A program made the translations under genes and the position numbers. A stretch of DNA of 64,000 bases from Streptomyces chumphonensis (GTDB taxonomy: Bacteria > Actinomycetota > Actinomycetes > Streptomycetales > Streptomycetaceae): positions 1 to 64,000 of the forward strand of contig NZ_JACXYU010000020.1 of NCBI RefSeq assembly GCF_014779715.1, in the 5' to 3' direction. Shown here in pieces: positions 40,766 to 61,400 of this stretch (position 1 is its first letter; each line of letters begins with the position of its first letter). The notes beneath the pieces were generated by a model. It saw nothing but the letters and a program-made list of their open reading frames with translations, was not told the DNA's origin and ran no database searches.

Positions 40766-42295
40766 TCAGCCGTCCGCGGGGGACGTCGCGGGGACGGTGG
40801 GCGCCCCGGCCCAGCGTCGCATGGCGGCGGGCAGTTCGACGGTGGCGCGTTCGCGGCCGCCGGCCCAGGCGCAGTAGCCGTCGGGCCGGACGAGGATCAT
40901 CTCCGCGTCCATCCAGGGCCCCTTGACGCCGCCGATCCTGCCCCGCATCTCCGTCACGAGGTCTCCCCACGGGTCGAGCAGGCCGGAGGGCTGGTTGCCG
41001 CTCTGGTCGACGAGGACGAAGGTGCCCGCGCGCATGTTCTCGAAGAGCCGGTCGCCCTGGGCCGGGCCGGTGCGGAAGGAGAGGTCCGGGACGCGGTGGC
41101 CCGCGGTGCCCTTGGGGCTGCGGGAGTCGGCGGTGGTGGGGTAGGCGGTGGCGATGCCGGAGAGGTGGCCGACGGCGAGTCGGTGGCCCCTGGGGACGCG
41201 GGTGGCCGTGGAGACGCCGACGAGCCGGGCGACGCGGGCGGGCAGGGCGTCGGAGGTCATCATGCGGGTGGCCAGGTCGGTGACCTTGATGACGCCCTGG
41301 GAGACGCGGCGGCGCTCCTCCTGGTAGGTGTCGATCAGCCGGTCCGAGCCCCGTCCCGAGGCCACGGCGGCCAGCTTCCAGCCGAGGTTCACGGCGTCCT
41401 GGATCCCGAGGTTGAGGCCCTGTCCGCCGAGGGGCGAGTGGACGTGTGCGGCGTCACCGGCGATGATCATGCGGCCCCTGCGGTAGGTCTCGGCCTGCCG
41501 TTCCTGGATGCGGAAGCGGGAGGTCCACAGGGGTTCGCTGGGGCGCAGGTCCTTGCCGAAGAGGCGCACGAGGGTCTCGCGGACCTCCTGGAGCGTGACG
41601 GGGTCGTCCGACCAGGACTTGCCGCGGTCGATGACGCCCAGTCGGTACCAGCCGTTGCCGAAGTCGGTGCAGACGACGAGACCGGCCCGGCCGACGTGGA
41701 TGAGCAGTTGCTCGTCGAGCGGCACGCCGAGCTTCACGTCCGCCACGATGATCGTGTACGGGTACATCTCGCCCTCGAAGGCGGCGCCCATGGCGTGGCG
41801 CACCGCGCTGTGCGCGCCGTCGCAGCCGACGAGCCAGGGCGTGCGCTCCTCCCACCGGCGCTCCTCGGACTCCAGCCGGTAGACGACCTCCTCGCCCTCC
41901 TGCCGGCAGCCCGTCAGCTTCACGCCGCGCTCGATGGTCACGCCGAGGTCGCGGGCGCGTTCTTCGAGGATCGCCTCGGTCTCGCCCTGCGGGATGATCG
42001 TGAGCTGGCCGTAGTCGCTGGGCAGGCGGCGGAGGTTGAGCAGGGAGTTGCCCAGGCTGACCCGGACCTGCTTGACGGGGTTGGCCCGCTCCAGGACGGT
42101 GTCGGCCATGCCGCGCGCGCGGAGCACCTCCATGGTGCGGCCGTGCAGGCCGAGCGCCCGGGACTCCTCGGTGCGGTGCGTGCGGCGCTCGACGACCTTG
42201 CAGCGCACGCCGGCGAGGGCCAGCTCGCCCGCGAGGCACAGACCGGTGGGACCGGCCCCCGCGATGACGACCTCGTAGTCACTTCCCGTGGCCAT
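40766..42295 (-). CDS. Class A FAD-dependent aromatic monooxygenase
   Basis: A 509-residue flavoprotein hydroxylase of the PheA/TfdB/Rox type. It shows the FAD Rossmann motif GAGPTGLCLAGELALAG (about residues 11-27) with VVERR at the end of strand 2, the DG motif WLVGCDGAHSAVRHAMG (about 155-170), and the second FAD motif RMIIAGDAAHVHSPLGGQG. These enzymes use NAD(P)H and O2 to hydroxylate phenolic or other ring substrates; some inactivate antibiotics such as rifampicin. The ATG at 42295 follows GAGAGGAG by 7 bases. It is divergent from the ABC operon across a palindromic operator, so it is either a tailoring or a self-resistance enzyme. Confidence 0.88.
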   Translation of the reverse strand: MATGSDYEVVIAGAGPTGLCLAGELALAGVRCKVVERRTHRTEESRALGLHGRTMEVLRARGMADTVLERANPVKQVRVSLGNSLLNLRRLPSDYGQLTIIPQGETEAILEERARDLGVTIERGVKLTGCRQEGEEVVYRLESEERRWEERTPWLVGCDGAHSAVRHAMGAAFEGEMYPYTIIVADVKLGVPLDEQLLIHVGRAGLVVCTDFGNGWYRLGVIDRGKSWSDDPVTLQEVRETLVRLFGKDLRPSEPLWTSRFRIQERQAETYRRGRMIIAGDAAHVHSPLGGQGLNLGIQDAVNLGWKLAAVASGRGSDRLIDTYQEERRRVSQGVIKVTDLATRMMTSDALPARVARLVGVSTATRVPRGHRLAVGHLSGIATAYPTTADSRSPKGTAGHRVPDLSFRTGPAQGDRLFENMRAGTFVLVDQSGNQPSGLLDPWGDLVTEMRGRIGGVKGPWMDAEMILVRPDGYCAWAGGRERATVELPAAMRRWAGAPTVPATSPADG

Positions 42296-42361
42296 GTCGG
42301 CACTCCTCTCTTGAACTGATCCCCCGGTGTGGTCGACCATGTCGGTAACTCATCACGTAAT

Positions 42362-45988: not shown

Positions 45989-47350
45989 GTGAGCAGTCCG
46001 GAACACGCGGAGTGGATCGCCGCCACCGCCCTCGGGGGGATCGCCCTCGTGCTGGCCGTGGGGGCGGGCTTCGCGGCGCTGGCGCGCCGACTCGGACAGC
46101 CGGCCGTCATCGGCGAGATCACCGCCGGGATCTGTCTCGGCCCGAGCGTCCTCGGGCTGCTCCCCGGCGACCTGCCGGCGCTGTTCTTCCCGGTCGACGT
46201 GCGCCCCTATCTCGGCGTCGTCGCTCAAGTGGGCCTGCTGCTGTTCATGTTCACCATCGGCTGGGAGTTCGACCACACCTCCCTGCGCGACCGCCGTCGC
46301 ACGACCGGGACGGTGTGGCTGGGCGGCGCCCTCCTGCCGATGGCGCTGGGCGTGGGCCTGGCCGCCCTCCTCTTCGGCGCGCACGACACCGTGAACGGCG
46401 AGAGCGTCCGGTTCCTGGACTTCGCCCTGTTCCTGGGCACGGCCGTCTCGATCGCCGCCTTCCCGGTCCTGGCCCGGATCATCACCGACCAGCGGCTGCA
46501 CCTGAGCCGGGTGGGCAACCTGGCCCTGGCCCTGGCCGCGCTGGACGACGTGCTCGCCTGGTGCCTGCTGGCCGTGGTCGTCGCCCTGATCACCGCCTCG
46601 GGCGCGGCCGGGTTCCTCGGCGTGCTCGGCTGGGGAGCCCTGTACGTCGTCGTCATGCTCGCGCTCGTGCGGCCGGTCCTGGCGGCCCTCGCGGCGCGGG
46701 CCACCGCCTCGGCGGCACCCTGGCTGGCCATGCTCGCCGCCGCCGGGGCGCTGGGCTCGGCCTACGTCACCTCGAACATCGGGCTGCACGCGATCTTCGG
46801 CGCGTTCTTCTTCGGCCTCGTCATGCCGCGCAAGGACCCGCAGCTGCTGCTGCGGCGCACCACCCTCCTGCCGCTGGAGCACGTGAGCAAGCTGCTGCTG
46901 CCGCTGTTCTTCGTGGTCACGGGGTTGTCGGTGGACCTGACGGCCATGACGGGGCAGGGCGCGGTCCACATGGTGCTGATCATCGTGGTGGCCTGCGTCG
47001 GCAAGCTCGGCGGTGTGCTCCTGTCGGCCCGGATGACCGGCATGAAGTGGCGGGAGTCGACCGTGCTCGGCCTCCTGATGAACACCCGGGGGCTGACGGA
47101 GCTGGTGATCCTCAACGTGGGGCTGTCCCTCGGTCTGCTGAGCACCGAACTGTTCACGGCCATGGTGATGATGGCGCTGGTCACCACGGCCATGACCGCT
47201 CCCCTGCTGTCGTGGCTGCTGCGCCGCGTCGGTGCCGGCGGTCCGACGGCCGGTGGGGCGCCGGTGCCGCTCCCGGCGCCGCCGGGCCCCCCGGCGGGCG
47301 CGGCCTCCCTCGTCGGCGGCGGGCCGTCCGGCTCCCAGCGCACCCCCTGA
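45989..47350 (+). CDS. CPA2 family cation/proton antiporter
   Basis: A 453-residue membrane protein with about thirteen hydrophobic helices and the CPA2 (KefB/NapA-like) features: RLGQPAVIGEITAGICLGPS near the start, GTAVSIAAFPVLARI in the middle (CPA2 ion-site region), and ALAALDDVLAWCLLA containing the DD pair. It would exchange Na+ or K+ for H+; in metabolite clusters such antiporters are seen as export or self-protection genes. GTG at 45989 follows GGAGGA. It heads the operon with ACAD, adenylation and reductase genes. The C-terminus is Pro/Gly-rich. Confidence 0.88.
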   Translation: MSSPEHAEWIAATALGGIALVLAVGAGFAALARRLGQPAVIGEITAGICLGPSVLGLLPGDLPALFFPVDVRPYLGVVAQVGLLLFMFTIGWEFDHTSLRDRRRTTGTVWLGGALLPMALGVGLAALLFGAHDTVNGESVRFLDFALFLGTAVSIAAFPVLARIITDQRLHLSRVGNLALALAALDDVLAWCLLAVVVALITASGAAGFLGVLGWGALYVVVMLALVRPVLAALAARATASAAPWLAMLAAAGALGSAYVTSNIGLHAIFGAFFFGLVMPRKDPQLLLRRTTLLPLEHVSKLLLPLFFVVTGLSVDLTAMTGQGAVHMVLIIVVACVGKLGGVLLSARMTGMKWRESTVLGLLMNTRGLTELVILNVGLSLGLLSTELFTAMVMMALVTTAMTAPLLSWLLRRVGAGGPTAGGAPVPLPAPPGPPAGAASLVGGGPSGSQRTP

Positions 47351-47369
47351 ACGCAGCGGAGGAGAGACC

Positions 47370-48518
47370 GTGGAGTTCGACTGGTCCGAGCGGCAACGTG
47401 CCCGCTACCACGACACCTTGACGGCCGTACGGGACGCCTTCCCGGAGGACGGGACAGCGGCCGGGGCGGCCTCGGCGACCTACGACCGCAAGGACTGGCT
47501 GCTGCTCGGCCGGCTGGGCCTCCTCGGCCTGTCCGTGCCGACCCGGTACGGCGGCGAGGGGCTCGGGGCCCTGGACACCGCGCTCCGGGTGGAGGCGTTC
47601 GGGCGCGGCTGCCACCGCACGGGACTGGTCTTCGGCGCGAGCGCGCACCTGTTCGCCTGCGCCATGCCCGTCGTCGACTTCGGCTCCGAGGAGCTCAGGG
47701 AGCGCGTCCTGCCCGGCATCTGCCGGGGCGAGCTCATCGCGGGGAACGCGATGACCGAGGACGGCGCCGGGTCGGACGTCTCCCGGCTCGCCGTCACCGC
47801 CCGGCCGGTCGAGGGCGGCTGGGTGCTGAACGGCGCCAAGAGCTTCGTCAGCAACGGCCCGGCGGCCGACCTCTACGTCACCTACGCCACCACCGACCCC
47901 CGGGCGGGACATCTGGGGGTGACCGGGTTCGTCGTGGACCGCACGGCCGCCGGGGTGAGCGCGAGCGGGCCGATGGGCAAGATGGGGCTCACCCAGTGCC
48001 CGGCCGGGACGGTGGAGTTCACCGACTGCTTCGTGCCGGACGCCGCCGTCCTCGGGGAGCCGGGCCAGGGCGGGGCCGTCTTCCAGCACTCCATGGGCTG
48101 GGAGCGGGCGTGCCTGTTCGCGGGCTACGTCGGCCTGGCCGACCGGCTGGTCGAGCGGTGCGTCGAGCACGTCCGCGCCCGGCGGCAGTTCGGCCGGCGC
48201 CTGGCGGAGTTCCAGGCCGTCTCGCACCGGATCGCCGACATGAAGCTGCGGGTGGAAGCGGCCCGGTTGCTGCTGTACCGCGCCTGCTGGGAGATGGAGC
48301 GGGGCCGCCCGGCGACCCTCTCCGTCGCCCTGTCGAAGCTCGCCGTCTCCGAGGGCGTCGTCCAGGCGGCGCTGGACGCCGTGCGCACCTTCGGGGGGCG
48401 CGGCTACCTGACGGCCGGGGGGATCGAGGCGGCCCTGCGGGACGCGGTGCCCTCGGTGCTCTTCTCCGGCACCTCCGACATCCAGCGGGAACTCATCGCG
48501 AGGGAACTGGGCCTATGA
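47370..48518 (+). CDS. Acyl-CoA dehydrogenase homologue (prolyl-carrier oxidase type)
   Basis: A 382-residue FAD enzyme of the acyl-CoA dehydrogenase family. The C-terminal signature LFSGTSDIQRELIARELG lacks Glu at the medium-chain catalytic position, but the alternative base is present in SMGWERACLF (E245), as in isovaleryl-type dehydrogenases and the prolyl-carrier oxidases such as PltE and CloN3. These oxidise prolyl-S-carrier to pyrrolyl-S-carrier. Its stop overlaps the adenylation gene's ATG (ATGA). GGAGGAG lies before the GTG at 47370. Context makes the pyrrole role probable. Confidence 0.88.
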   Translation: MEFDWSERQRARYHDTLTAVRDAFPEDGTAAGAASATYDRKDWLLLGRLGLLGLSVPTRYGGEGLGALDTALRVEAFGRGCHRTGLVFGASAHLFACAMPVVDFGSEELRERVLPGICRGELIAGNAMTEDGAGSDVSRLAVTARPVEGGWVLNGAKSFVSNGPAADLYVTYATTDPRAGHLGVTGFVVDRTAAGVSASGPMGKMGLTQCPAGTVEFTDCFVPDAAVLGEPGQGGAVFQHSMGWERACLFAGYVGLADRLVERCVEHVRARRQFGRRLAEFQAVSHRIADMKLRVEAARLLLYRACWEMERGRPATLSVALSKLAVSEGVVQAALDAVRTFGGRGYLTAGGIEAALRDAVPSVLFSGTSDIQRELIARELGL

Positions 48519-49981
48519 CACTGCACGCTCTCCTGACGGCCTCGGCCCGGCGGAACCCGGAGGCCGTGGCCGTGCACGGCCCCGAGGGGCCGGTGCGCTA
48601 CGGCGCACTGGACGCGTTGGCCGACCGCTTCGCCGCCGCCCTGACGGCCCGGGGCGTGCGCCCCGGCGATCGAGTCGTCCTGTGGAGCCACAAGGGCGTC
48701 CGGACGATCGCCCTCATGCAGGCGGCGCTGCGCACGGGCGCCGTCTACGTCCCGGTGACCGGCTCCAACCCGCCCGCACGCCTGGCGCGCATCACCGCGA
48801 GCGCGCGGCCCGCGCTGGTCGTCGCGGACGAGGAGGCGGCGCGGCGACCCCGTCCCGACGGGGACGACACCCCGCTGGTGACCTTCTCCGAGCTGCTCGC
48901 CGAGGCCCGGGAGGGCGCCCGCGTCACCCCGTACGACGCCGGCCCGGACGAGCCGGCGTACATCCTCTACACCTCCGGATCGACCGGGGAGCCGAAGGGT
49001 GTGTGCATCAGCCACCGCAACGCCCTGGCCTTCGTGGAGTGGGCCGTGGCGGAGCTGGCCCTCGGGGCCGACGACCGGCTGTCCCAGCACGCGCCGTTCA
49101 CCTTCGACCTCTCCGTCTTCGACCTGTACGGTGCCTTCGCGGCCGGCGCCTCGGTGCACCTGGTGCCGCAGGAGATGGCCTACGCGCCCGCCCAGCTCGT
49201 CCGGTTCCTCCACGAGCGGGAGATCACCGTCTGGTACTCCGTTCCCTCGGCCCTGAGCCTGATGATCCGCGAGGGCGGGCTGCTGGAGGGGGAGCCGCCC
49301 GCCGCGCTGCGGGCGTGTCTCTTCGCCGGTGAGCCGTTCGCCCCGCACCACGTGCGGGAACTGCGGGCCGGCTGGCCGAAGGTGCGGCTGCTCAACTGGT
49401 ACGGGCCCACCGAGACCAACGTCTGCACCTCCTACGAGGTCACCGACGCCGACCTGGAGCGCACCGGCGCGCTCCCCATCGGTGCCGCGTGCTCCGGTGA
49501 CGAGGTGCTGCTCGACCCGCCGGGGGCCGAGGAGGGCGAGGTCGTCGTGAGCGGCCCGACGGTGATGCTCGGCTACTGGGGCCGCGAGCCGCACCGGGGC
49601 CTCTACCGCACCGGCGATCTCGCCCGCCGGGACGCGGACGGACAGCTGAGCTACGTCGGCCGCCGGGACCAGATGGTCAAGATCCGCGGTCACCGGATCG
49701 AGCTCGGTGAGATCGAGGCGGCCGTCGGTTCGCTGGACACCGTCGCCGACGTGGCGGTGCTGGTGGTCGGCGTGGGCCTGGAGGCCGAGTTGCACGCGGT
49801 GGTGGTGCCCGCCCCCGGCGAACGCCCGTCCCTGCTCCACGTCAAGCGCTGCTGCGCGGAAAGGTTGCCGACCTACATGATCATCGACAGGCTCCACCTC
49901 CAGGAAGACCTCCCGCGAACCGCCAACGGGAAGCTCGACCGTCCGCTGATGACCACCCAGATCGAGTCCGGGGAGCTGTGA
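48515..49981 (+). CDS. Stand-alone adenylation protein, probably L-proline specific
   Basis: A 488-residue amino-acid adenylating enzyme that would load an amino acid onto the free carrier protein. The core motifs are present: ILYTSGSTGEPKG (A3), NWYGPTETNV (A5), YRTGDLARR (A7), RGHRIELGEIE (A8) and PRTANGKLDR with the catalytic Lys (A10). My hand alignment to the GrsA positions gives the specificity residues D-L-F-Y-L-A-W-V-C-K; eight of ten agree with the proline code DLLYLALVCK that I recall for PltF and RedM. There is no attached carrier or condensation domain. It overlaps the ACAD gene before it and the reductase gene after it. Confidence 0.9.
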   Translation: MTLHALLTASARRNPEAVAVHGPEGPVRYGALDALADRFAAALTARGVRPGDRVVLWSHKGVRTIALMQAALRTGAVYVPVTGSNPPARLARITASARPALVVADEEAARRPRPDGDDTPLVTFSELLAEAREGARVTPYDAGPDEPAYILYTSGSTGEPKGVCISHRNALAFVEWAVAELALGADDRLSQHAPFTFDLSVFDLYGAFAAGASVHLVPQEMAYAPAQLVRFLHEREITVWYSVPSALSLMIREGGLLEGEPPAALRACLFAGEPFAPHHVRELRAGWPKVRLLNWYGPTETNVCTSYEVTDADLERTGALPIGAACSGDEVLLDPPGAEEGEVVVSGPTVMLGYWGREPHRGLYRTGDLARRDADGQLSYVGRRDQMVKIRGHRIELGEIEAAVGSLDTVADVAVLVVGVGLEAELHAVVVPAPGERPSLLHVKRCCAERLPTYMIIDRLHLQEDLPRTANGKLDRPLMTTQIESGEL

Positions 49982-50541
49982 TGAACGCCCAGAACCTGAT
50001 GACCGAAGAGCTGGTCGCCGAAGAGCTGGCCTCCGTCGACCTCCAGACGTTCCGCCAGGTCATGGCCTCGTTCGCCAGTGGCATCACCGTCGTCACCACG
50101 GTGGACGGCGCGGGCACCCCGCGTGGGCTCACCTGCTCGGCGTTCTGCAGCGTCTCCGTCGACCCGCCGCTGCTGCTGTCCAGCATCGCCAGCCGCAGCG
50201 GCTCGCTCCAGGCGATACTGGAGCGCGGCCGGTTCGCGGTGAACATCCTCAGCGCGCGGGACGAGAAGACCTCTCAGGTCTTCGCCTCCGGCACCCAGGA
50301 CAAGTTCAGCCGGGTGCGGTGGGAGCCGGGCGCGACGACCGGAATGCCGGTGCTGCTGGGCACCACCGCGCACGCCGAGTGCGAGCTGGACAGCGTCGTA
50401 CGGGCCGGTGACCACACCCTGCTGCTCGGCCGGGTCGTGGCCGGTGACGCGGGCGTCGACACCCTCCCGCTGACCTACTGGCGCAGCGACTACGCGCGAC
50501 TGGCCCCCGGCGCCCGGACGACCCACCCGGTCGCGGTGTAG
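49981..50541 (+). CDS. Flavin reductase (HpaC/FMN-binding split barrel)
   Basis: A 186-residue flavin:NAD(P)H reductase-like protein (FRQVMASFASGITVVTT, GLTCSAFCSVSVDPPLLL, RFAVNILS, GRV near the end). It would supply reduced flavin to the cluster's FAD-dependent halogenases, which cannot reduce their own flavin. The ATG at 49981 shares its A with the adenylation stop (GTGATG); the GTG at 49978 is an alternative start. It ends the operon before a long bidirectional terminator. Confidence 0.9.
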   Translation: MNAQNLMTEELVAEELASVDLQTFRQVMASFASGITVVTTVDGAGTPRGLTCSAFCSVSVDPPLLLSSIASRSGSLQAILERGRFAVNILSARDEKTSQVFASGTQDKFSRVRWEPGATTGMPVLLGTTAHAECELDSVVRAGDHTLLLGRVVAGDAGVDTLPLTYWRSDYARLAPGARTTHPVAV

Positions 50542-50658: not shown

Positions 50659-50970
50659 TCAGAGGGCGACGCCGTAGGGCGCCAGCGCGTACCGGCGCGC
50701 CAGGTACGCGCCCAGCTCGGCCAGGCCGGCGCGGTGGCGCAGCATCTCCCGGCCGAGTTCCTGGCCGAGCCACGCCTCCAACTCGCCCGCCAGCACGACG
50801 GCGTCCACCGAGTCGATGTCGAGTTCGTCGAGGTGGCGGTCGACGGGCACCTGCTCGGCGGGGACGTCGAGCAGGTGGGCGACCCGGGCGACGAGCCACT
50901 CCAGCACGGCCTCCTCGGTGACCGGGTGCCGCGCGCTCTCCTGCGCCGGCGGGGTCTGCTGCACGTCCAT
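50659..50970 (-). CDS. Free acyl/peptidyl carrier protein
   Basis: A 103-residue carrier protein. The phosphopantetheine-attachment serine is in DELDIDSVDAVVL (Ser54); most carriers have Leu after this Ser, here it is Val. The helical pattern VLEWLVARVAHLL ... LAGELEAWLGQELGREML is typical. It is the only free carrier visible and so the likely partner of the adenylation protein and ACAD, though its position downstream of the degenerate halogenase gene would also suit an acyl carrier for a polyketide step. ATG at 50970 follows GAGAGGAG. Confidence 0.85.
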   Translation of the reverse strand: MDVQQTPPAQESARHPVTEEAVLEWLVARVAHLLDVPAEQVPVDRHLDELDIDSVDAVVLAGELEAWLGQELGREMLRHRAGLAELGAYLARRYALAPYGVAL

Positions 50971-51134: not shown

Positions 51135-52796
51135 TCAGCGGCTGGAGGCCGAGGTGACGGAGGTGACGTTGTCGCGGGTGAGCAGGCGCCGGAAGTCCGC
51201 GGGCGCCTTCGTCTTCACCCACAGCAGCATCCGCAACCGCTTGGGGAAGGTGAAGTGGTAGACGCGGGCCGCGGGGTCGCCGAAGGCGTACAGCGGCGGC
51301 ACGAACGGGGCCCGGCGCAGGTCCGCGAAGATCGCCGCAGCGGCGGTGGCGGCGTCCCGGCGGCCCTCGCGCACCTGGGCGATCGTCTCCAGGCTCCGGC
51401 CGACCAGTTCGCGCAGGCCCTCGGGGGCGTGGAACCAGATGCCGCCCAGCTCGAAGCGCTCGACGGGTGCCCAGCTCCCGGACTGCTCGCAGTCGAGGCG
51501 GGCGCGCTTGAGCGACAGGTCGGCGAGGATCTGCCACAGCAGCCACACGCGGGAGAAGGCGTTCCACAGCCGGAAGTCGCGGCAGGCGGTGCGGGCGGCG
51601 GCCAGCAGCCGGTCGTTCCACGCGCCGAGCTCCTCCTGGAAGCGGGCCACCCGGGCGAACGGCTCGGGGGCGAAGTCGTCCCGGCGCACGGCCGTGATCA
51701 GCGGGCCGGCCAGCGCGTGGACCAGCTCGGCCGCCGTCGTCACGTCGCGGGAGAGGAACAGGTCGGTGCGCGCGGCGGAGCGTTCGAGCGCGAACCAGCG
51801 CTCCCCGTGCGTGCGGGCGGCGGTGCGCTGCGTCGGCACGTGGGCCGTCCACGGCCGCACCGGGGACGCGGTGTCGAACTGGCGCGCCAGGTCGGGGTAG
51901 CGCTCGACGACGGAGCGGAAGGCCTTCTCCGGGTCGTCGGGCAGCTCGGCGGCGACCTCGGGGTCGACGCTGAGCGTGACGGACGTCAGCGGGTTCTCCC
52001 CGGCCCGGTGGTTGCCGAAGTGCGCCAGCTGGAGCCAGCCGCCGTCGAAGAGGTGGTGGACGGTGCCCTCGGACCAGGGGGTCGCCTTCGGGTGCCGGTG
52101 CGGGGGGACGACGTCCTCGAAGGGCGTCACGCCCCGCAGGTGCGCCGTGTAGCTCACCGAGCGGTGGGTGAGCCGGGGCTCGGCGTCGTCACCGCCCGCG
52201 CGGCGCACCAGCGGCGAGGCGTCGCCGGAGCAGTCCACGAGGTAGCGGGCGCGGTACGTGCGGCCGTCGGAGGCCCGGACCTCTCCCCCGTCGGGTCCGG
52301 CCTCGGCGTCGGTGAGGGTGACGCCGCGCGGGACGAGGGCCGCACCGTGCCGGGCGGCGATCCGCAGCGCGTGGGCGTCCACCTCCGGGCGGTACGGGTG
52401 CCACTCGGCGTGCTCGCCGGGCACGTTGAACTGGACGCTCTCGGCCGGGTCGTGGCGGCGCCCGGCGTGGTGGTGGAGGAAGCCCAAACTCTTCTTGACG
52501 CCACTGGTCCGCCGCACCTCCTCCGGCAGGTCGGAGAAGAGGCCGAACGCGGCGATCTCGGGGACGTCGAAGCGCTTGGCGAGCAGCAGGAAGACCTCGG
52601 CCGTGTAGGGCACGGTCGTCTCGCCGGAGGGAGCGCGGCGGTCGTCCTCCGCGCCGACGAGCAGCACGCGCACGCCCTGCCGGGCCAGCACCGCGCCCAG
52701 CAGACCGGCGGCGAGCGTCCCGCCGAGCACGGCGACGTCGTACCGTTCGGCGGGATCGGCGGCCCGGCCGGCGTCGGTCGGGGGTGCAGGAGTCAT
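51135..52796 (-). CDS. Degenerate flavin-dependent halogenase homologue
   Basis: A 553-residue homologue of the two halogenases at 54887 and 56646 that has lost the cofactor and active-site motifs. The FAD Rossmann motif GxGxxG is GGTLAA (residues 25-30), the acidic residue at the end of strand 2 is Gly48, WxWxIP is WLQLAH (about 252), and the segment AGFxDxLFSRGLSNT is AARTDLFLSRDVTTA. The lysine (VKKSLGF, K101) is kept. This resembles PltD of the pyoluteorin cluster, a halogenase-like protein known to lack the nucleotide-binding site. The frame is fully intact, so it is probably a non-catalytic partner or a repurposed protein, not a decaying pseudogene. It precedes the carrier protein on the same strand. 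Confidence 0.88.
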   Translation of the reverse strand: MTPAPPTDAGRAADPAERYDVAVLGGTLAAGLLGAVLARQGVRVLLVGAEDDRRAPSGETTVPYTAEVFLLLAKRFDVPEIAAFGLFSDLPEEVRRTSGVKKSLGFLHHHAGRRHDPAESVQFNVPGEHAEWHPYRPEVDAHALRIAARHGAALVPRGVTLTDAEAGPDGGEVRASDGRTYRARYLVDCSGDASPLVRRAGGDDAEPRLTHRSVSYTAHLRGVTPFEDVVPPHRHPKATPWSEGTVHHLFDGGWLQLAHFGNHRAGENPLTSVTLSVDPEVAAELPDDPEKAFRSVVERYPDLARQFDTASPVRPWTAHVPTQRTAARTHGERWFALERSAARTDLFLSRDVTTAAELVHALAGPLITAVRRDDFAPEPFARVARFQEELGAWNDRLLAAARTACRDFRLWNAFSRVWLLWQILADLSLKRARLDCEQSGSWAPVERFELGGIWFHAPEGLRELVGRSLETIAQVREGRRDAATAAAAIFADLRRAPFVPPLYAFGDPAARVYHFTFPKRLRMLLWVKTKAPADFRRLLTRDNVTSVTSASSR

Positions 52797-52984: not shown

Positions 52985-54745
52985 TCAGGCGCCGCCGGGC
53001 GTGATCCGCGCGGGCTTGACCTTCGGCAGGGCGAGGACCAGCAGGAAGCAGAGGGTGAAGACTCCCAGCTGCCAGCCCAGGGCGCCCTGGAAGCTCCGGC
53101 TGAAGTTCTCCTTGCGGGCCTCCGGCGCGGCCTCCACGAGGACCGCCGTGCGCACCTGTTCCGTCACCTCGGGCGGCAGCGGCAGCTGTTCGGCCTCCCG
53201 TTCGACCCGCTCGCAGCTCGGCGGGACGGCCGTGAGGTCCTTCTGGTTCGTGCGGTCCTCGAAGCAGGTCTCGAAGCCGGCGACGACCTGTTCCGAGCGT
53301 TCCGGCGGCAGTCCGGCGGCGGCCAGGTCCTGCCGTAGCCGCGGCTCCACCGTGGCCAGGGAGTCCCCGGCGTTTCCGGCGATGAGGTTGGCGAAGAGGA
53401 TGCCGATGACCGCGATGCCGACGGCGATGCCGACCTGCTGCGTCGTGGCGATGACGCCGGAGGCGGAGCCCGCGTCGCCGGACCTGATGCCCTCCAGGAT
53501 GATGCCGGTGATCGGCGCGACGACCAGGCCGGTGCCGGCGCCGCCGACCATGAGCGCCGGGACGAGGTACCAGCCCCGCAGGTCGGTGCCGGCCCAGTGG
53601 AGCGTCAGGATGACGCCGCCCATGCCGGTCACGAGGAGCGCGGTGCCCAGGGCCAGCGTCCAGGTGCCGAGCTTGCGCACGACGACGTTCGAGCGCGCCG
53701 AGCCGATGGCGATGAGCAGGGCGAAGGCCAGCGTGACCGCGCCCGCGGAGACGGCGCTGTACGCGAAGCCGATCTGCAGGGTGATGAACAGCGTCATGAA
53801 GAACGACGGGATGCCGGTGAAGAAGACCAGGCTGATCAGCAGACCGACGGTGAAGGACCGCTCCTTGAAGAGCGTGACGGGCACCAGCGGCGACGCGTCG
53901 GGGTCGGCCGTCCGGCGCCTCTCCACCCACGCGAACCAGGCCAGGACGAACGGCCCGGCCGCCAGCATGGCCAGGCTCCAGGCCGGCCAGTCGTGCTCGC
54001 GGCCCACGACCAGGGGCAGGATGAGCAGGAAGAGCCCGGCGGTGACGATCAGCGCACCGGTGACGTCCAGCCGCGTCCTGGTCTCGGCGGAGGACTCCCG
54101 CAGGCGGGCGGCGCCCAGCCCGAGGGCGAGCAGGCCGATGGGCACGTTGACGTAGAAGATGGACCGCCAGTCGCTGCCGGCGATGTCCAGCTCGATGAGC
54201 CAGCCGCCCAGGACCGGTCCGAGGACGGTGGCCAGGCCGATGGAGGCGCCGTAGAAGGCGAGCGCCTTGGGCTTCTCCCTGCCGAAGAACGTGACCTGGA
54301 TGATCGACAGGACCTGCGGGAACATCAGTCCGGAGAAGAGTCCCTGGAGGACCCGGGAGAGGACCAGGAAGTCGGCGCTGGTGGCCGCCCCGCACATGAC
54401 GGAGGCGCAGGTGAAGCCCAGCATGCCGATGAGGAACATCCGCTTGCGGCCGTAGATGTCGCCCAGTCGGCCGCCGGTGATCAGCATGCAGGCGAAGGCG
54501 AGGGCGTACACGGCGACGACGAGCTGGACGTCGGCGAACGAGGCCCCGAGGTCCGCCTGGATCGAGGGGATCGCCACGATCGTGATGGTGGTGTCCAGCA
54601 GCTGCATGAACACGGCGGACAGCACGATCACGAGGATCAGCCAGCGGCCCGGGACCGGCGGTGCCTGGCCCTGCGCGGCGTCGGGCGCCGGTGCGGTGTC
54701 GGGGGCCGGGGGACGCGTCGGCCCGGGCCCGGTGGAGACACTCAT
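52985..54745 (-). CDS. DHA2 family MFS drug exporter
   Basis: A 586-residue major-facilitator protein with about 14 membrane helices. The DHA2 motifs are visible: LDTTITIVAIPSIQADL at helix 1, GGRLGDIYGRKRMFLIGM after helix 2, and LGPVLGGWLIE (motif C) in helix 5. An unusually long extracytoplasmic loop with two Cys (FETCFEDR, PPSCERVE, about residues 500-560) precedes the last helix. ATG at 54745 follows AAAGGA. It sits between two halogenase genes and probably exports the product. Confidence 0.93.
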   Translation of the reverse strand: MSVSTGPGPTRPPAPDTAPAPDAAQGQAPPVPGRWLILVIVLSAVFMQLLDTTITIVAIPSIQADLGASFADVQLVVAVYALAFACMLITGGRLGDIYGRKRMFLIGMLGFTCASVMCGAATSADFLVLSRVLQGLFSGLMFPQVLSIIQVTFFGREKPKALAFYGASIGLATVLGPVLGGWLIELDIAGSDWRSIFYVNVPIGLLALGLGAARLRESSAETRTRLDVTGALIVTAGLFLLILPLVVGREHDWPAWSLAMLAAGPFVLAWFAWVERRRTADPDASPLVPVTLFKERSFTVGLLISLVFFTGIPSFFMTLFITLQIGFAYSAVSAGAVTLAFALLIAIGSARSNVVVRKLGTWTLALGTALLVTGMGGVILTLHWAGTDLRGWYLVPALMVGGAGTGLVVAPITGIILEGIRSGDAGSASGVIATTQQVGIAVGIAVIGILFANLIAGNAGDSLATVEPRLRQDLAAAGLPPERSEQVVAGFETCFEDRTNQKDLTAVPPSCERVEREAEQLPLPPEVTEQVRTAVLVEAAPEARKENFSRSFQGALGWQLGVFTLCFLLVLALPKVKPARITPGGA

Positions 54746-54886
54746 CTTCCATTCCTTTCGCGTTGCCGGGGCGGCGCCGCGCACCCGCTCGGGGACGCGG
54801 CGCCCTCCGCCTGCTCGGGCCGGGTCGCCCCGGGTGGGCCCTGCCGGGCCCGGTGGCGCGCCCACGGAACGCGCCGAGAGGACGCC

Positions 54887-56557
54887 CTAGAAGATGCGGC
54901 GGCCCTTCGCCTTCGCCTTCAGCGCCTCGATGCCGGTGCCGAACATCAGTCGCCGCACCGCCGGGTCGCCCTCCCTGCGCGCCCAGCCGATGGTCTTGCG
55001 GAGGACCTTCGGCGTGGGGTGCAGGAAGCGCTGGTCGCGTTCGGCGAACCCGAAGTGCTTGGGCACGTACGGTGCCCGGGCGATGTGGTCGTAGATGGTG
55101 TCGGCCGCCTCTCGAGCCGTGCTCTTGCCCGACTCGAAGGCGTCGCACCGCTCGACCATCTCGTCGTACAGGCTCTTGTAGCCGTCGTGGTTCGGCCAGT
55201 ACAGGCCCAGGTGGGGGACGTCCTCGGCGTGCTTGAAGTGCTCGTCGCGGCCGTCCTTGAGGTACTTGGTGAGCGCCGACTGGAGGTGGAAGGTGCCCGC
55301 GTTGGCACCCCAGGCCCAGACCCGGAAGACGGCGGTCCACAGGTCGTAGTCGTCCCACGAGATGTACGCGGCGTTGACGAGGCTGTCGTTGTAGTCGAAC
55401 AGGCCCTGCTGGAGGCGGTCGACGTAGTCGAAGCGCTCCTGGGAGAAGTCGTCGTCCTTGACGGCGTCCAGCAGGCGCCAGGACAGCGTGTTGATGGCCT
55501 CGGCCGTGTTGGACAGGCCGCGGGAGAAGAGGGGGTCGATGAATCCGGCCGCGTGCGAGAGGAGGAACCACCGGTCGCCCGAGCAGCGCGTGGAGGAGTA
55601 CTGCAGCCGTCCGGTGGAGACCCACTCGCGCATCGGCTTGGCACCCTCGAACTGCCGGGCGACGTCCGGGAAGCGCTGCGCGTAGTGGTGGAACTCCTCC
55701 TCCGGCGTCATGTTCCCGGCCTTGGGGTACGTGCGCGGGTCGAGCGTGAGCCCGACGCTGCACAGCGGGTTCCTCGACCACGGGTGGTTGTCGAAGCCGA
55801 TGACCCAGAACCAGCCGCGCCGGAACATGTGGTGGACGGTGCCCTCGTACCAGGGCACCGGCGGGGTGTTCTCCGGGGAGTGGTGGAACAGGGTGTCGGT
55901 GGGCGGGACGTCGATCATGTGGTTCCAGATCGACCGCGAGTGGTGCTTGAAGCGGCAGGTCTCCTCACGCAGCCCGAACTTCTCCGCCAGCGGTGAGCGG
56001 TAGCCGCTGGCGTCGACGACGTAGCGGGCCCGGTACTGCTCCCCGGCCGCGGAGCTGAGCGTGACGCCGCCGCCGTCGAAGTCGACGTCCTCCACGCGGA
56101 AGTTGACGCGCGGCACGCAGCCGTACTTCACGGCCGTGTGGTACATGTACGCGTCGATGTCCTGGCGGTAGAGGTGGCTGGCCTCGTGCAGCAGACCCGG
56201 GGTGTCGAACTGGTTCACCTCGCGCGGGTCCTGGGGCCGGCCCTCGTGGTGGAGGAGGAAGCCGAAGTGCTTCTTCACCCCGAACTTGGGGCCGAGGACC
56301 TTGGTGCTGTTGGTGAAGGTGGCGAGCGTCTTGATCTCGGGCACGTCGTAGCGCTCGGAGATCGTGCGCAGGGCCACGAGGGTGTAGGGGATGGTGGACT
56401 CGCCGATGGCGAACTTCGGGTGCGAGGCCGCATCGATGAGCAGCACCTTGGCGCCGTTGCGGGCGAGGATCGCCCCCAGCATGGAACCGGCGATACCGGA
56501 GCCGAGGATGGCGACGTCGAAGGGCTGTGCGGGGTCGGGGTTCGGTTGCTCGTGCAC
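54887..56557 (-). CDS. Flavin-dependent halogenase, first active-type copy
   Basis: A 556-residue FADH2-dependent halogenase. The FAD motif is GSGIAG (residues 19-24) with LLIDA at strand 2, GESTIPY follows, and the catalytic-lysine segment is FGVKKHFGF (K95/K96). The tunnel motif WxWxIP reads WFWVIG (about 248), with Gly for Pro. AGFIDPLFSRGLSNT is intact. Such enzymes chlorinate pyrrole or phenol rings, often on a carrier protein. GTG start at 56557 follows AAGGAG. It lies between the other active-type halogenase and the MFS gene. Substrate and halide not provable here. Confidence 0.92.
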   Translation of the reverse strand: MHEQPNPDPAQPFDVAILGSGIAGSMLGAILARNGAKVLLIDAASHPKFAIGESTIPYTLVALRTISERYDVPEIKTLATFTNSTKVLGPKFGVKKHFGFLLHHEGRPQDPREVNQFDTPGLLHEASHLYRQDIDAYMYHTAVKYGCVPRVNFRVEDVDFDGGGVTLSSAAGEQYRARYVVDASGYRSPLAEKFGLREETCRFKHHSRSIWNHMIDVPPTDTLFHHSPENTPPVPWYEGTVHHMFRRGWFWVIGFDNHPWSRNPLCSVGLTLDPRTYPKAGNMTPEEEFHHYAQRFPDVARQFEGAKPMREWVSTGRLQYSSTRCSGDRWFLLSHAAGFIDPLFSRGLSNTAEAINTLSWRLLDAVKDDDFSQERFDYVDRLQQGLFDYNDSLVNAAYISWDDYDLWTAVFRVWAWGANAGTFHLQSALTKYLKDGRDEHFKHAEDVPHLGLYWPNHDGYKSLYDEMVERCDAFESGKSTAREAADTIYDHIARAPYVPKHFGFAERDQRFLHPTPKVLRKTIGWARREGDPAVRRLMFGTGIEALKAKAKGRRIF

Positions 56558-56645: not shown

Positions 56646-58409
56646 TCACTTGGGCAGGGGCACCCGCAGCGGCCTACCGATGACCGGCCAGCGCGCGACG
56701 ATGTGCTTGAGCTCCTCGGCGAGGTCGAACTCCTCGCGGTCGAACCGCTTGCGGATGAAGAGGGTGAGCCCTTCGTGGACGAGTTCGCCGATCTCCACCG
56801 GCGCGTTCCGCTTCGCCCATTTGAGGGTGTCGACGATCTTCATCGTGGAGGCGTCGGTCCAGTGGTTGTCCGGGTCGGCGAGGCCGAAGGCGGGCGGGAC
56901 GAAGTCCGCCGCGCGCAGCATCTCCATCATCTCGTGGGCGGCGGCGCGTGCGGGGAGGTCACCGGCGTGCACGGACCGCGTCAGCTCGCTGACCCGCTTG
57001 AGCAGTTCGCGGGCGGGCGCGTAGTCGGGGATGGCGCCGTCGGGTGCCTGCCGCTCCAGCCGGGCGAGGACCGAGGGGTCGTGGCTGTCCAGGAAGCGGG
57101 CGTAGGCGCGGTTGATCTCGAAGGTGGCGAGGATCTGCCCCAGGGACCAGATCCGGAACCAGGCGTTCCACAGGTGCCAGTCGCTGAACGAGGTGTACGC
57201 GTTGGCGACGAGGTCGTCGTTGAAGTCCAGCAGGCCCTGCTCCAGCTCCTGGACGTACGCGAAGCGCTCGACGGAGAAGTCGTCGTCCTTGATGGCGTCC
57301 AGCAGCCGCCAGCCGAGGGCGTGGATGATCTCCATCGTGTTGGACAGGCCCCGGGAGAACAGCGCGTCCACGAACCCGGCGGCGTGCGAGGTGAGGCACC
57401 AGCGGTAGCCGACGGTCTGCTTGGACGAGTACTGGAGCCGGCCGGTGCTCACCCAGTCGCGCACCGCGCGGGCTTCCCTGAACTGCGGCTCGATGTCCGG
57501 GTACTTGGCGATGAAGCGGCGGAACTCCTCCTCCGGGGAGCAGTCCGGCCGGGGGTGCTTGCGCGGGTCGAGGTTGAGCCCGACGCTGCACAGCGGGTTG
57601 GTGGCCCGGGGGTGGTTGTCGAAGGGGATGACCCACATCCAGCCACCGTCGAAGAGGTGGTGCAGCGTGCCCTCGCTCCACGGGCTGGGGTTGTTGTGGA
57701 CGCCCTTGGGCACGGTGCCCTCGTAGGGCTTCACGCCGACCATGTGGGTGAACAGCGACCGCGAGTGGTGCCGCAGCCGACTCGGGTCCTCCCGCAGGTC
57801 GAACTTCCGGGCGATCGGCGAGCGGTGCCCGCTGGCGTCCACGACGAACCTCACCCGCACCGGGTCGCCGCTCCCCGCGAGGACGGTGACGCCCTCGTCG
57901 TCGATCTCGACGTCGTCGACCCTGGTCTGCTGCCTGACGTGGGCGCCGTACTTGACGGCCACGCCCAGCATCCAGGCGTCGGTGTCCTGCCGGAAGAAGT
58001 GGTTCTCGGTGTGGGTGATCTTGGGGATGGGGAACTCGCTGGTCTCCAGCGGGTTCTGCTTGGCGTTCTCCCGGTGGTAGAGGAATCCGAAGTTCCGCTT
58101 GACCCCGCAGTTGGTGGAGATCTTGGCCTGGGTGGCTTCGAAGGTGGTCAGCCACTTGATCTCCGGCACCCCGTACCGTTCGCTGACCAGCCGCATCATC
58201 ATCGAGGTGTAGGGGATCGTGGACTCGCCGATGGCGAAGCGCGGGTGCGACCCGGCGTCCAGGATCAGCACCTTCGCGCCGTTCTTGGCCAGGCAGGCCG
58301 CCAGCGTGGACCCGGCCAGGCCCGAGCCGAGAACGGCCACGTCGTACTGCGGTCGGTCTCCGGAGCTCGCCGGTCGGGGTTCGGTGGTCGTGCGTCGGCT
58401 GGGGGCCAT
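56646..58409 (-). CDS. Flavin-dependent halogenase, second active-type copy
   Basis: A 587-residue halogenase closely related to the one at 54887. It has GSGLAG (residues 28-33), LILDA, GESTIPY, the lysine segment CGVKRNFGF (K104) and a complete WMWVIP (about 256). In the later motif AGFVDALFSRGLSNT, Ala replaces Pro. The C-terminus is about 30 residues longer than in the other copy. ATG at 58409 follows GAGGAG; an upstream ATG at 58469 overlaps the PKS leader and is less likely. All active-site elements are present, so this is the best candidate for pyrrole halogenation. Confidence 0.93.
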   Translation of the reverse strand: MAPSRRTTTEPRPASSGDRPQYDVAVLGSGLAGSTLAACLAKNGAKVLILDAGSHPRFAIGESTIPYTSMMMRLVSERYGVPEIKWLTTFEATQAKISTNCGVKRNFGFLYHRENAKQNPLETSEFPIPKITHTENHFFRQDTDAWMLGVAVKYGAHVRQQTRVDDVEIDDEGVTVLAGSGDPVRVRFVVDASGHRSPIARKFDLREDPSRLRHHSRSLFTHMVGVKPYEGTVPKGVHNNPSPWSEGTLHHLFDGGWMWVIPFDNHPRATNPLCSVGLNLDPRKHPRPDCSPEEEFRRFIAKYPDIEPQFREARAVRDWVSTGRLQYSSKQTVGYRWCLTSHAAGFVDALFSRGLSNTMEIIHALGWRLLDAIKDDDFSVERFAYVQELEQGLLDFNDDLVANAYTSFSDWHLWNAWFRIWSLGQILATFEINRAYARFLDSHDPSVLARLERQAPDGAIPDYAPARELLKRVSELTRSVHAGDLPARAAAHEMMEMLRAADFVPPAFGLADPDNHWTDASTMKIVDTLKWAKRNAPVEIGELVHEGLTLFIRKRFDREEFDLAEELKHIVARWPVIGRPLRVPLPK

Positions 58410-58499
58410 GGGCGGGTCTCCTCGATGTCCTCGGTGCGTCGGTGCGGCCGTGCCGGGTGCCGGTGACACGGATGGTCCTCGCTCCCGCTGGAGGCGGGC

Positions 58500-61400
58500 T
58501 CAGGGCGCGGTGGGAGACGGCAGGTAGCCGCTGTCGACCATCCACGCGAAGTAGGTGCGCAGCAGCGCGGCGTCCAGGGCGGGGCAGTGGGGGCCGGTCG
58601 TCCGCAGGGCGTCCTCGACGTGGTCCGTGCGGTAGTCGATGGCCTCCTCGCCGCCGACGACGAACTCCTCGACGACGCCCATCACCGGGTGCAGTTCGTT
58701 CTCCCGGACGGCGTAGGAGTCCTGGAGCGCCCTCCACCAGTCCTCGACCGGCACGGTCTCGACCGTCCAGCCGAAGTCCGCCATCGCCTCCAGCAGGTCG
58801 GTGAAGGGGAGTTTGGCCCGGTTGACCAGGTGGTAGGTGCGGCCGAAGTCGTGCGGTTCGCGGGAGATCCGCACCAGGGCGCCGGCCACGTAGTCCACCG
58901 GCGTCATCTCCACCTCCAGGTCCAGGGCCGGCGCCGTGCCCAGCTGGAGGCAGCCCTTGATGACCCGGGTGGTGAAGTGGGTGGTCAGGCAGGCGCCGGT
59001 ACGCGAGTCCCCCAGCACCCGGCCCGGCCGGTGGACGTCGACGGGGATGCCGCGTTCCCCGGCCAGCTCCATCATCCGCTCGGCCGCCCACTTGGTCTGC
59101 ACGTAGCCCGTGACGAGCTTTCCCGCGCCGAGGATGTCGTCGTCCTCGCGGACCACGGTCCGTCCGTCGGCGGGCAGGCCCCAGATCCCGTACGTCGACA
59201 CGTGGGTGACGGGCGAGAGCGGGCCGTGGCAGGCCAGCCGCAGGATCTCCGCGCAGCCCGTCAGGTTCGCGGCCCGCAACTGCTCGTAGGTGTAGGAGAA
59301 GTTGACCCAGGCTCCGTTGTGGTAGATGGCGTCGAGCTGTTCGCCGAGCGCCTCGAACCGCTCGCGGTCCAGGCCGAGCAGCGGCTTGCCGAGGTCGCCG
59401 GGGACGACGGCGATGCGGACGTCGGCGTCCGGGCGCCAGGGGAGGTACCGCTCCACGTTGCGCCGGATGCGGGCCAGCCCCTCGGCCTCGTCGGCGCACC
59501 GCACCAGGCAGTGCACGGTCGCCCGGGTGGTGGCCAGCAGCTCGTCCAGCAGGTAGGCGCCGACGAAGCCGGTGGCGCCGGTGAGCAGGACCCGGTCGGG
59601 GTCGGTGTAGCCCTGCCGGAGCGGGCCGGCGGGGCGGATGTCCGGATCGAGGGTCACGTCCTCGGCGATCCGCGCGGGATCACTCATGGCGGACGCGTCC
59701 GGTCCCGCCCCGGCGTCGCCGGAGGTGCCGAGCTCACCGGCGAGCAGCTCCGCCCAGTCCTCCAGGGTGGAGCGCTCGAAGAGCTGGTTCGGCCGCAGGC
59801 TGACCCGCAGTTCCCGCTTGCAGCGCTTGACGACGTCCATCACCATCAGCGAGTCCAGCCCGTGGGCCATGACGTCGGCGGCGGGGTCGACGCGGTCGGG
59901 GTCGACGCCGACGATCTCGCCGAGCACCTCGCGCAGGAACCCGACGAGCCGCGCCCGCAGCTCCTGAGGACCGGCGGCGGCGAGTTCGGCCGGCAGCGCG
60001 GACTCCTCGCCGTCGAACGCCTCGGCGGTCTCCAGCTCGCGCAACATCGGGCGTTCGACGCGGGCCTCCATGACCGGCTTGTACACCGCCCAGTCGGCCG
60101 CGCACACCACGGCCTGCGGGGCGTCACCGGCCAGCAGCATCCCCAGCAGCCGCAGACACTGCGGTGCGGACAGCGTCCGCAGGCCCGTGGAGGTGAGGAA
60201 CTCCAGGACGTCCTCGCCGAAGAGCGCGGAGGGCAGCTCCCACGGGCCCCAGCTCACCGTCAGCGCGGCGGCCCCCCGCGCCCGGCGGTACTCGGCGAGG
60301 CCGTCCAGGAAGGCGTTGGCGGCCGCGTAGCTCGTCAGGTGCTGCGAGCCCCAGGTGGCGGCGATGGAGGAGAAGCCCAGGAAGAAGTCCAGCTCCAGGT
60401 GTTCGGTGAAGTGGTGCAGGAGCCAGCCGCCGACGACCTTCGGCCGCCAGACGGCGTCGTACGCCCGTGGGTCGCCCACCGGGACGTCGCGCAGGAACTG
60501 CGGTTCGGACACGCCGGCGGCGTGGACGACGCCGGCCAGCGGGGTGGCGCCGAGCACGAGCCGGTCCACGATGTCGCGGACCTGGTCCGGGTCGCCGACG
60601 TCGGCGGCCACCACCTCCACCTGGACACCGGTGGCCTCCAGAGAGCGCACGACGGCGACGCGCTCGCGCACGGCGGCCTCCAGCCCCGGCCGGTCCCAGT
60701 CCGCGCGAGGCGGCAGCGGGGTGCGCCCGAGCAGCACCAGCCGGCCGGCGCCCTGGTCGGCGAGCCAGCGGGCGACCGTTCGGCCGATGCCGCCGAAGGC
60801 CCCGGTGATCAGGTAGCCCGCGTCGGGCCGGACGACGGGCGTGCGGCGCAGCTCCTGCGGGGTCGCGCCGCCGCGGCGCACGCGGGCCACGTGGCGCCCG
60901 TCGGCGCGCAGCGCCTGCTGGTCCTCCGCCGCCGCGTCCCACAGCGCGGCGACGAGCGCGTCGGCCTCGCCCGGCGGGGGCTCGCTCGCCGGGGGCAGGG
61001 GAGCGAGGTCGACCGCACCGCCCCAGTGGTCGGGGTGTTCCAGGGCGATGACGCGGCCGAGGCCCCACAGCGTGTGCGCGAAGGGGTTGGTGACGGCGGG
61101 CGGGCCGTCCCCGGCGGCCGCCCCGGCGCCGGCCGGGACGCTTCCGCGCGTGACGAGGGCCACCGTCGTGCGGGCGTGGTCGGGGCGCTGAAGCAGTTCC
61201 TGCACCAGGGCGACGGCCGTCAGTTCCGTCCGGTCCCGGTAGGCCGTGAGCGACTCCGGGTCCGCGACGGTGACGTCCGGCGCGTCGACGCCGCTGAGCA
61301 GCACGACGCGGCCGGGCGTGCCCGGCGTCAGGTCCTCGCGCCAGTCGTCCAGCAGCGCGCCGAGGGCCGCGGTGTCGGGGCGCAGCGCGTCCGCGTCGGC

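Follow-up and report, generated by a model that had tools for sequence, protein, structure and literature searches.

The pyoluteorin pathway of Pseudomonas protegens includes PltD, a halogenase homologue reported to be without the flavin motifs, which is encoded in a cluster combining pyrrole genes with a type I polyketide synthase (PKS) that carries a ketoreductase (KR) in its last module. Loss of pltD is described as abolishing pyoluteorin (PMC9395707), and PltD is named in PMC12670696 as the enzyme of Yi et al. (2022), the title of which assigns a “nonfunctional halogenase” the role of an aromatizing dehydratase. In the later account of Yi and Agarwal (PMC10204065), the tetraketide is reduced by the KR of PltC and off-loaded by PltG, after which dehydration and aromatisation of the product follow. 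A second candidate of this type is McsG, encoded in the pyrrolomycin-type mcs cluster of Micromonospora sp. RB23, which has five annotated halogenases. McsG is described, like PltD, as being without key motif residues (PMC12670696), but elsewhere in the same paper the motifs are said to be present in every one of its halogenases. Finally, the pyrrolomycin (pyr) cluster itself stems from Streptomyces vitaminophilus (PMC12670696), a synonym of Wenjunlia vitaminophila in the NCBI taxonomy.

Here we describe a gene of Streptomyces chumphonensis that is probably an actinobacterial orthologue or close relative of PltD, and that, judging from its residues and its neighbours, appears to have lost the flavin site, to have kept the catalytic lysine and the C-terminal region, and to act now as an aromatizing dehydratase. 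Such an enzyme is reportedly conserved in other pyrrolic polyketide clusters. The gene lies in a stretch of 64,000 nucleotides, referred to as the window, the positions of which are also those of the contig. The following features of the window make up the locus:

47232..48518, plus strand: prolyl-carrier dehydrogenase, PltE/RedW/PigA-like (NF053553, 436 bits, and NF045652, 394 bits, both below the cut-offs)
48515..49981, plus strand: stand-alone amino-acid adenylation enzyme (TIGR01733, above cut-off); a PltF-like proline ligase by context only
49978..50541, plus strand: flavin reductase (PF01613)
50659..50970, minus strand: carrier protein (PF00550), PltL-like by context
51135..52796, minus strand: halogenase homologue without flavin motifs, 553 amino acids, proposed aromatizing dehydratase (open reading frame and translation)
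52985..54865, minus strand: MFS drug exporter (TIGR00711, 213 bits, below the cut-off of 230)
54887..56557, minus strand: motif-intact halogenase, phenolic type by similarity (GSGIAG, GVKKH, WFWVIG)
56646..58469, minus strand: motif-intact halogenase, phenolic type by similarity (GSGLAG, GVKRN, WMWVIP)
58500..64000, minus strand: terminal PKS module, reaching contig position 65327 (its part inside the window holds AT, KR, ACP and a thioester reductase)
58878..59585, minus strand: terminal thioester-reductase domain (PF07993, 2.4e-60)
60237..60818, minus strand: ketoreductase domain (PF08659, 6.7e-55)

On the minus strand, two PKS genes (contig 71533 to 58500), two halogenases, the exporter, the halogenase homologue and the carrier protein thus form one row, alongside which the dehydrogenase, the adenylation enzyme and the flavin reductase are encoded on the plus strand. 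The true start of the dehydrogenase may lie inside the frame 47232..48518. The first PKS gene (PKS1; contig 65330-71533, L004:5330-11533) yielded two KS, two AT and two ACP matches, and the KS of the terminal module was judged by its similarity to PKS1. A profile search of the terminal module for the dehydratase (DH) family found none. The gene sits with pyrrole-starter genes, among them the adenylation enzyme, the proline specificity of which is assigned by context, and with a type I PKS that ends in a module with a KR and without a DH. A further, shorter halogenase at contig 73247-74590 (PF04820, 7e-32) is by context a PltA-like pyrrole halogenase. AT domains are expected to carry the motif GHSxGE; the second AT of PKS1, as read by eye, has GAGVGE and may be degenerate. 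Near the cluster, window positions 40766-42340 encode an FAD-dependent aromatic-ring hydroxylase, a 66-67% identical counterpart of which occurs among the halogenases of three other clusters (L034, L045 and L048); it may tailor the cluster product.

The PltD system, likened here by its published description, differs in its pseudomonad host and in that the PKS of the window, an actinobacterial one, ends in a thioester reductase. The mcs authors propose release by a thioesterase (PMC12670696), and McsG resembles the window protein in motif loss as described. In W. vitaminophila, the PltD-like gene (L043:9959-11629) is 71% identical to the window protein and resides in a matching cluster. Both clusters comprise the starter genes, the carrier, the exchanger, the PltD-like gene, two halogenases, both PKS genes, a TetR gene and a pyrrole-type halogenase, and their KR and reductase domains are each 75% identical. 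By this shared gene content (L079, L085, L086) the cluster appears to be of the pyrrolomycin type.

The frame of the halogenase homologue runs on the minus strand from an ATG at 52796 to a TGA ending at 51135, with zero internal stops over 553 codons, as the initial annotation had stated without giving the strand. A G+C content of 0.75/0.53/0.97 at codon positions 1/2/3 is a normal coding profile, that of a real gene in this genome. The protein is 34 and 37% identical to its motif-intact neighbours at 54887-56557 and 56646-58469, and a search of the whole genome with it (E 1e-3) returned three matches, namely itself and these two. Four sites distinguish it or tie it to the halogenases:

52707..52724, minus strand: degenerate dinucleotide motif GGTLAA, residues 25-30 (alignment against relatives)
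52494..52496, minus strand: retained catalytic lysine K101 (GVKK), equivalent to PltM K87 (alignment)
52029..52031, minus strand: Q256, replacing the second Trp of WxWxIP (alignment)
51744..51782, minus strand: residues 339-351, with R339, R343 and D351 where PltM has Q321, F325 and G333 (alignment read by hand)

Three features mark a functional flavin-dependent halogenase: GxGxxG, which here reads GGTLAA; WxWxIP, which reads WLQLAH; and the catalytic lysine, which is present as K101. All the motif readings made at first sight proved accurate (GGTLAA, Gly in place of the strand-2 acid, WLQLAH, a broken AGFxDxLFSRG segment and the lysine), and the comparison with PltD drawn from them was apt. 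WLQLAH occupies residues 254-259, and the broken segment reads AARTDLFLSRD at 341-351. The strand-2 acid needs a narrower statement: it is Gly48 in the window protein, but 15 of the 25 intact members of the clade introduced below retain Asp. A group defined by loss of this acid was accordingly discarded.

The best solved relatives by sequence are PltM (6bza) and tetracycline 7-halogenase (7xgb), to which the window protein is alike over most of its length (E 8e-57 and 3e-82, respectively). The lysine is common to all three proteins, but the two solved enzymes keep the flavin motifs and the window protein does not. K101 aligns with chain residue 107 of solved PltM, which equals Lys87 if the chain bears a 20-residue tag, a numbering supported by the K87A and S404Y primers listed in PMC6424973. 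Halogenation by PltM is shown in the same paper, which describes Q321 and F325 as flavin contacts (PMC6424973). In the hand-read alignment these two positions correspond to R339 and R343. Since the flavin-contact positions are taken by charged residues and the lysine is kept, the flavin site was replaced while the lysine stayed.

Relatives of the protein were collected by several scans. Among 295 genomes of the genus, intact close relatives (48-69% identity) occur in four besides the window's own (G159, G276, G069 and G212), a copy in G062 stops early near the C-terminus, and a copy in G124 is broken over two frames; these numbers are minima, as four candidates per genome were scored. A scan of 394 genomes of the class added one new member with the same motifs (G578, 72%) and a Frankia copy also found in the scan of named genomes. 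The latter used the peptide patterns GETTVPYT and VxFxVPxEH and yielded 23 loci, all actinobacterial, including W. vitaminophila; residues 58-65 and 121-129, conserved partly by construction through these patterns, were given no weight. Plasmid matches (14 records) are at most 36.4% identical, and one of them, from Azotobacter, adjoins PrnB, was therefore taken as PrnC-type, and served as a distant row in the tree.

The tree comprises 68 of 104 aligned proteins; the 36 rows dropped are 33 near-copies or close relatives (three intact clade members among them), two locus-edge duplicates and one partial row. Its 23 members of the clade, 22 of them intact and one a degraded orphan from Streptomyces sp. 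yr375, form one branch with a support of 100/99, apart from 42 motif-intact relatives, and hence the flavin-free form did not arise recently from the present halogenases of the window. The nearest pairing of the window protein within the branch is weakly supported (88/51). The clade covers at least three named families in the tree, plus records from Frankia and Catellatospora. Degraded copies from G156 and G179 with a His at position 101 adjoin it, and a second G156 copy lies elsewhere on a long branch; long branches (L080, the orphan) and odd composition (the orphan and three extra copies) make the placement of these flagged rows less sure.

The clade carries a residue signature. All 25 intact members have Q256, R339, D351, S428, K430, Y513, F515 and R520, each of which is present in no more than 10% of 71 relatives with intact motifs, called active here by motif alone; the positions were chosen after viewing the alignment. 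R343 is present in 24 of the 25, and K101 is kept throughout both groups (71/71 and 25/25). The yr375 orphan was left out of this count, the PrnC-type row was left out of the active set, and the broken G124 copy is in neither. The pyrrole-PKS clusters of G156 and G179 contain three degraded copies (L072:5221-6702, L072:13732-15303 and L073:6946-8535) that differ at the lysine motif: two read GVHRT, and the third, on a very long branch, reads GVARS, with Ala. The two relatives with His101 keep R339, D351, K430 and Y513 and belong to KR-bearing clusters, for which reason the lysine may be dispensable in some such enzymes.

Taken together with the cluster, this pattern makes it most likely that the window protein does the job of PltD on a polyketide of the pyrrolomycin type. 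From the gene content and the alignment we infer a reaction, its catalytic residues, an order of steps and a product class as follows. A proline-type unit would be activated, oxidised to a pyrrole on the carrier protein and chlorinated, and the pyrrole unit would then be extended by three PKS modules. As the last module has a KR and is without a dehydratase domain, a hydroxyl should remain on the ring after release. Its removal as water, and thereby aromatisation of the ring, would fall to the PltD-like protein; candidates for acid/base catalysis are K101 together with Q256, R339, R343 and D351, the newly acquired polar residues. The aromatised ring would subsequently be chlorinated by the two phenolic-type halogenases.

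A refinement compatible with this dehydratase assignment concerns the substrate, and we would put its chances somewhat below even. In clusters with a terminal reductase, chain release by the PKS may be reductive and yield an aldehyde; the PltD-like enzyme of this pyrrolomycin-type subclade would then work on an aldol ring derived from that aldehyde, might also close the ring, and would remove one or two waters, so that its substrate would differ from that of PltD and would have changed once, with gain or loss of the reductase. Reductive release would imply an aldehyde, an aldol ring, two waters to lose and a single ring hydroxyl. Pyrrolomycins have a single ring hydroxyl, and pyrrolomycins and marinopyrroles have one ring hydroxyl fewer than pyoluteorin.

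The distribution of the reductase domain is consistent with such a change. Of the 26 genomes that carry an intact clade gene, 15 have a match of at least 65% identity, which in 14 of them shares the contig of that gene. No match at that level was found in the other 11; three of these have matches of 39-42%, either on a different contig or at a distance of roughly a million bases. With 24 rows scored, the reductase state needs one change on the tree, and the reductase-positive rows form, together with one orphan, one branch (97/91). The stand-alone thioesterase gene of this genome's cluster is an N-terminal remnant, which matches residues 11-66 of 240, lies between PKS1 and the regulator and revealed no serine motif in the stretch read; the other thioesterases of the genome are on other contigs. 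The remnant occupies contig C13:71720-71887, beyond the window (L004), where PKS1 and the TetR gene flank it; at the corresponding location W. vitaminophila has a much longer thioesterase match (residues 10-225 of 240; L086:4630-5277). Against reductive release stand the published proposal that a thioesterase releases the chain (PMC12670696) and the presence of stand-alone thioesterases in reductase-positive clusters too. Thioesterases occur in both kinds of cluster and were rejected as a marker of the reductase-free ones. Among the paper titles listed in a literature search, none concerned reductive release in pyrrolomycin clusters, which does not imply its absence from print.

Linkage to the pyrrole pathway recurs in other genomes of the clade. 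In a set of 24 genomes that excludes the window's own, the adenylation gene (E 1e-100) was found wherever the clade gene is intact (22 of 22; one shared contig in 20, different contigs in G305 and G308) and in neither of the two that hold a degraded orphan. Within the genus it occurs in 23 of 295 genomes, comprising 5 of 5 with an intact copy versus 18 of 290 others (P 2e-6, or 2e-5 without the window's genome). A KR was found in 21 of 21 clade loci with the last PKS module in view, out of 25 loci. G186 harbours a related pyrrole-PKS cluster with a terminal reductase (L075/L076, G186:C43, about 327900-330700), in which a KR was looked for and none found; the cluster nevertheless contains an odd halogenase-like gene with GSGLIA, without the lysine and without WxW. 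The link to the KR is thus not absolute, and a strict tie of the gene to this domain is weakened.

In all 22 intact loci of the named-genome scan, motif-intact halogenases lie at most 10 kb away, an arrangement that would also suit a non-catalytic scaffold, one to which a partner halogenase or the carrier-bound substrate would bind. The initial annotation had suggested such a binding role, and it is in keeping with a protein that lost its flavin motifs while its sequence match to solved halogenases extends to residue 540. Yet none of the 25 intact members departs from the lysine or from a set of new polar residues, a constancy beyond what a scaffold would need, and an enzymatic role, that of an aromatizing dehydratase, has been reported for the counterpart PltD (Yi et al. 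2022), which leaves the suggestion, as worded, outdated and unsupported. We regard a pure scaffold as improbable.

It is very unlikely that the protein is a halogenase, or a flavin enzyme of another kind, with residual weak or transient binding of FAD. The Pfam Trp_halogenase profile scores the protein just above its cut-off (22.8 versus 21 bits; 56.6 and 52.3 bits for the two neighbours), part of the clade has the strand-2 Asp, and FAD is described as dissociating even from PltM (PMC6424973). These traits are set against losses at the flavin site that run through the clade: residue 27 is Gly in 71 of 71 motif-intact relatives and in 0 of 25 intact members, position 256 is Trp in all of the former and Gln in all of the latter, Arg occupies the two flavin-contact positions (25/25 and 24/25), and the glycine at 351 has become Asp (25/25).

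The dehydratase reading also fits the way in which the gene has been maintained. We counted dN/dS by a simple modified Nei-Gojobori method for pairs picked by hand, some of them overlapping; the count ignores codon bias and is therefore meaningful only between groups. The ratio amounts to 0.09-0.52 (median 0.31) in 14 clade pairs, 0.16-0.51 (median 0.41) in 7 pairs of motif-intact halogenases and 0.53-0.77 in 4 comparisons with orphans; the contrast between clade and orphans is slight at the edge (0.52 for the highest clade pair, 0.53 for the lowest orphan value). Within the same genome pairs, the clade gene and its active neighbours gave 0.41 versus 0.51 and 0.38, 0.44 versus 0.26 and 0.43, 0.33 versus 0.41 and 0.47, and 0.21 versus 0.16. 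The clade gene is hence under purifying selection, like motif-intact halogenases and with the flavin motifs gone, which bears out the early view that it was retained for a non-redox role. Frameshifts and relaxed selection among homologues, named at the outset as evidence to the contrary, are confined to two orphan copies and do not extend to the rest of the clade. Positions 101, 339, 351, 430, 513 and 515 of the yr375 orphan (L038/L056) read N, P, E, R, R and C, respectively, and no pyrrole-PKS cluster was found near either orphan in the stretches read. That the gene is a pseudogene on its way out, its frame open by chance, has a negligible probability and, at the level of the clade, is rejected. 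Degradation does affect two orphan relatives, but 25 intact members across families, a dN/dS as in motif-intact halogenases, a strict signature and the cluster linkage contradict it.

The reported case of a halogenase turned dehydratase thereby gains a defined clade of actinobacterial proteins that share a residue signature, and for which the orphans from yr375, stripped of signature residues, and from G124 (L040), which is frameshifted, are useful natural controls. If the proposed change of substrate is true, two dehydrations would account for the one ring hydroxyl by which pyrrolomycins and marinopyrroles fall short of pyoluteorin. The clade also offers a testable rule that connects the release domain of the PKS with the subclade of the enzyme and with the pattern of ring oxygens in chlorinated pyrrole antibiotics.
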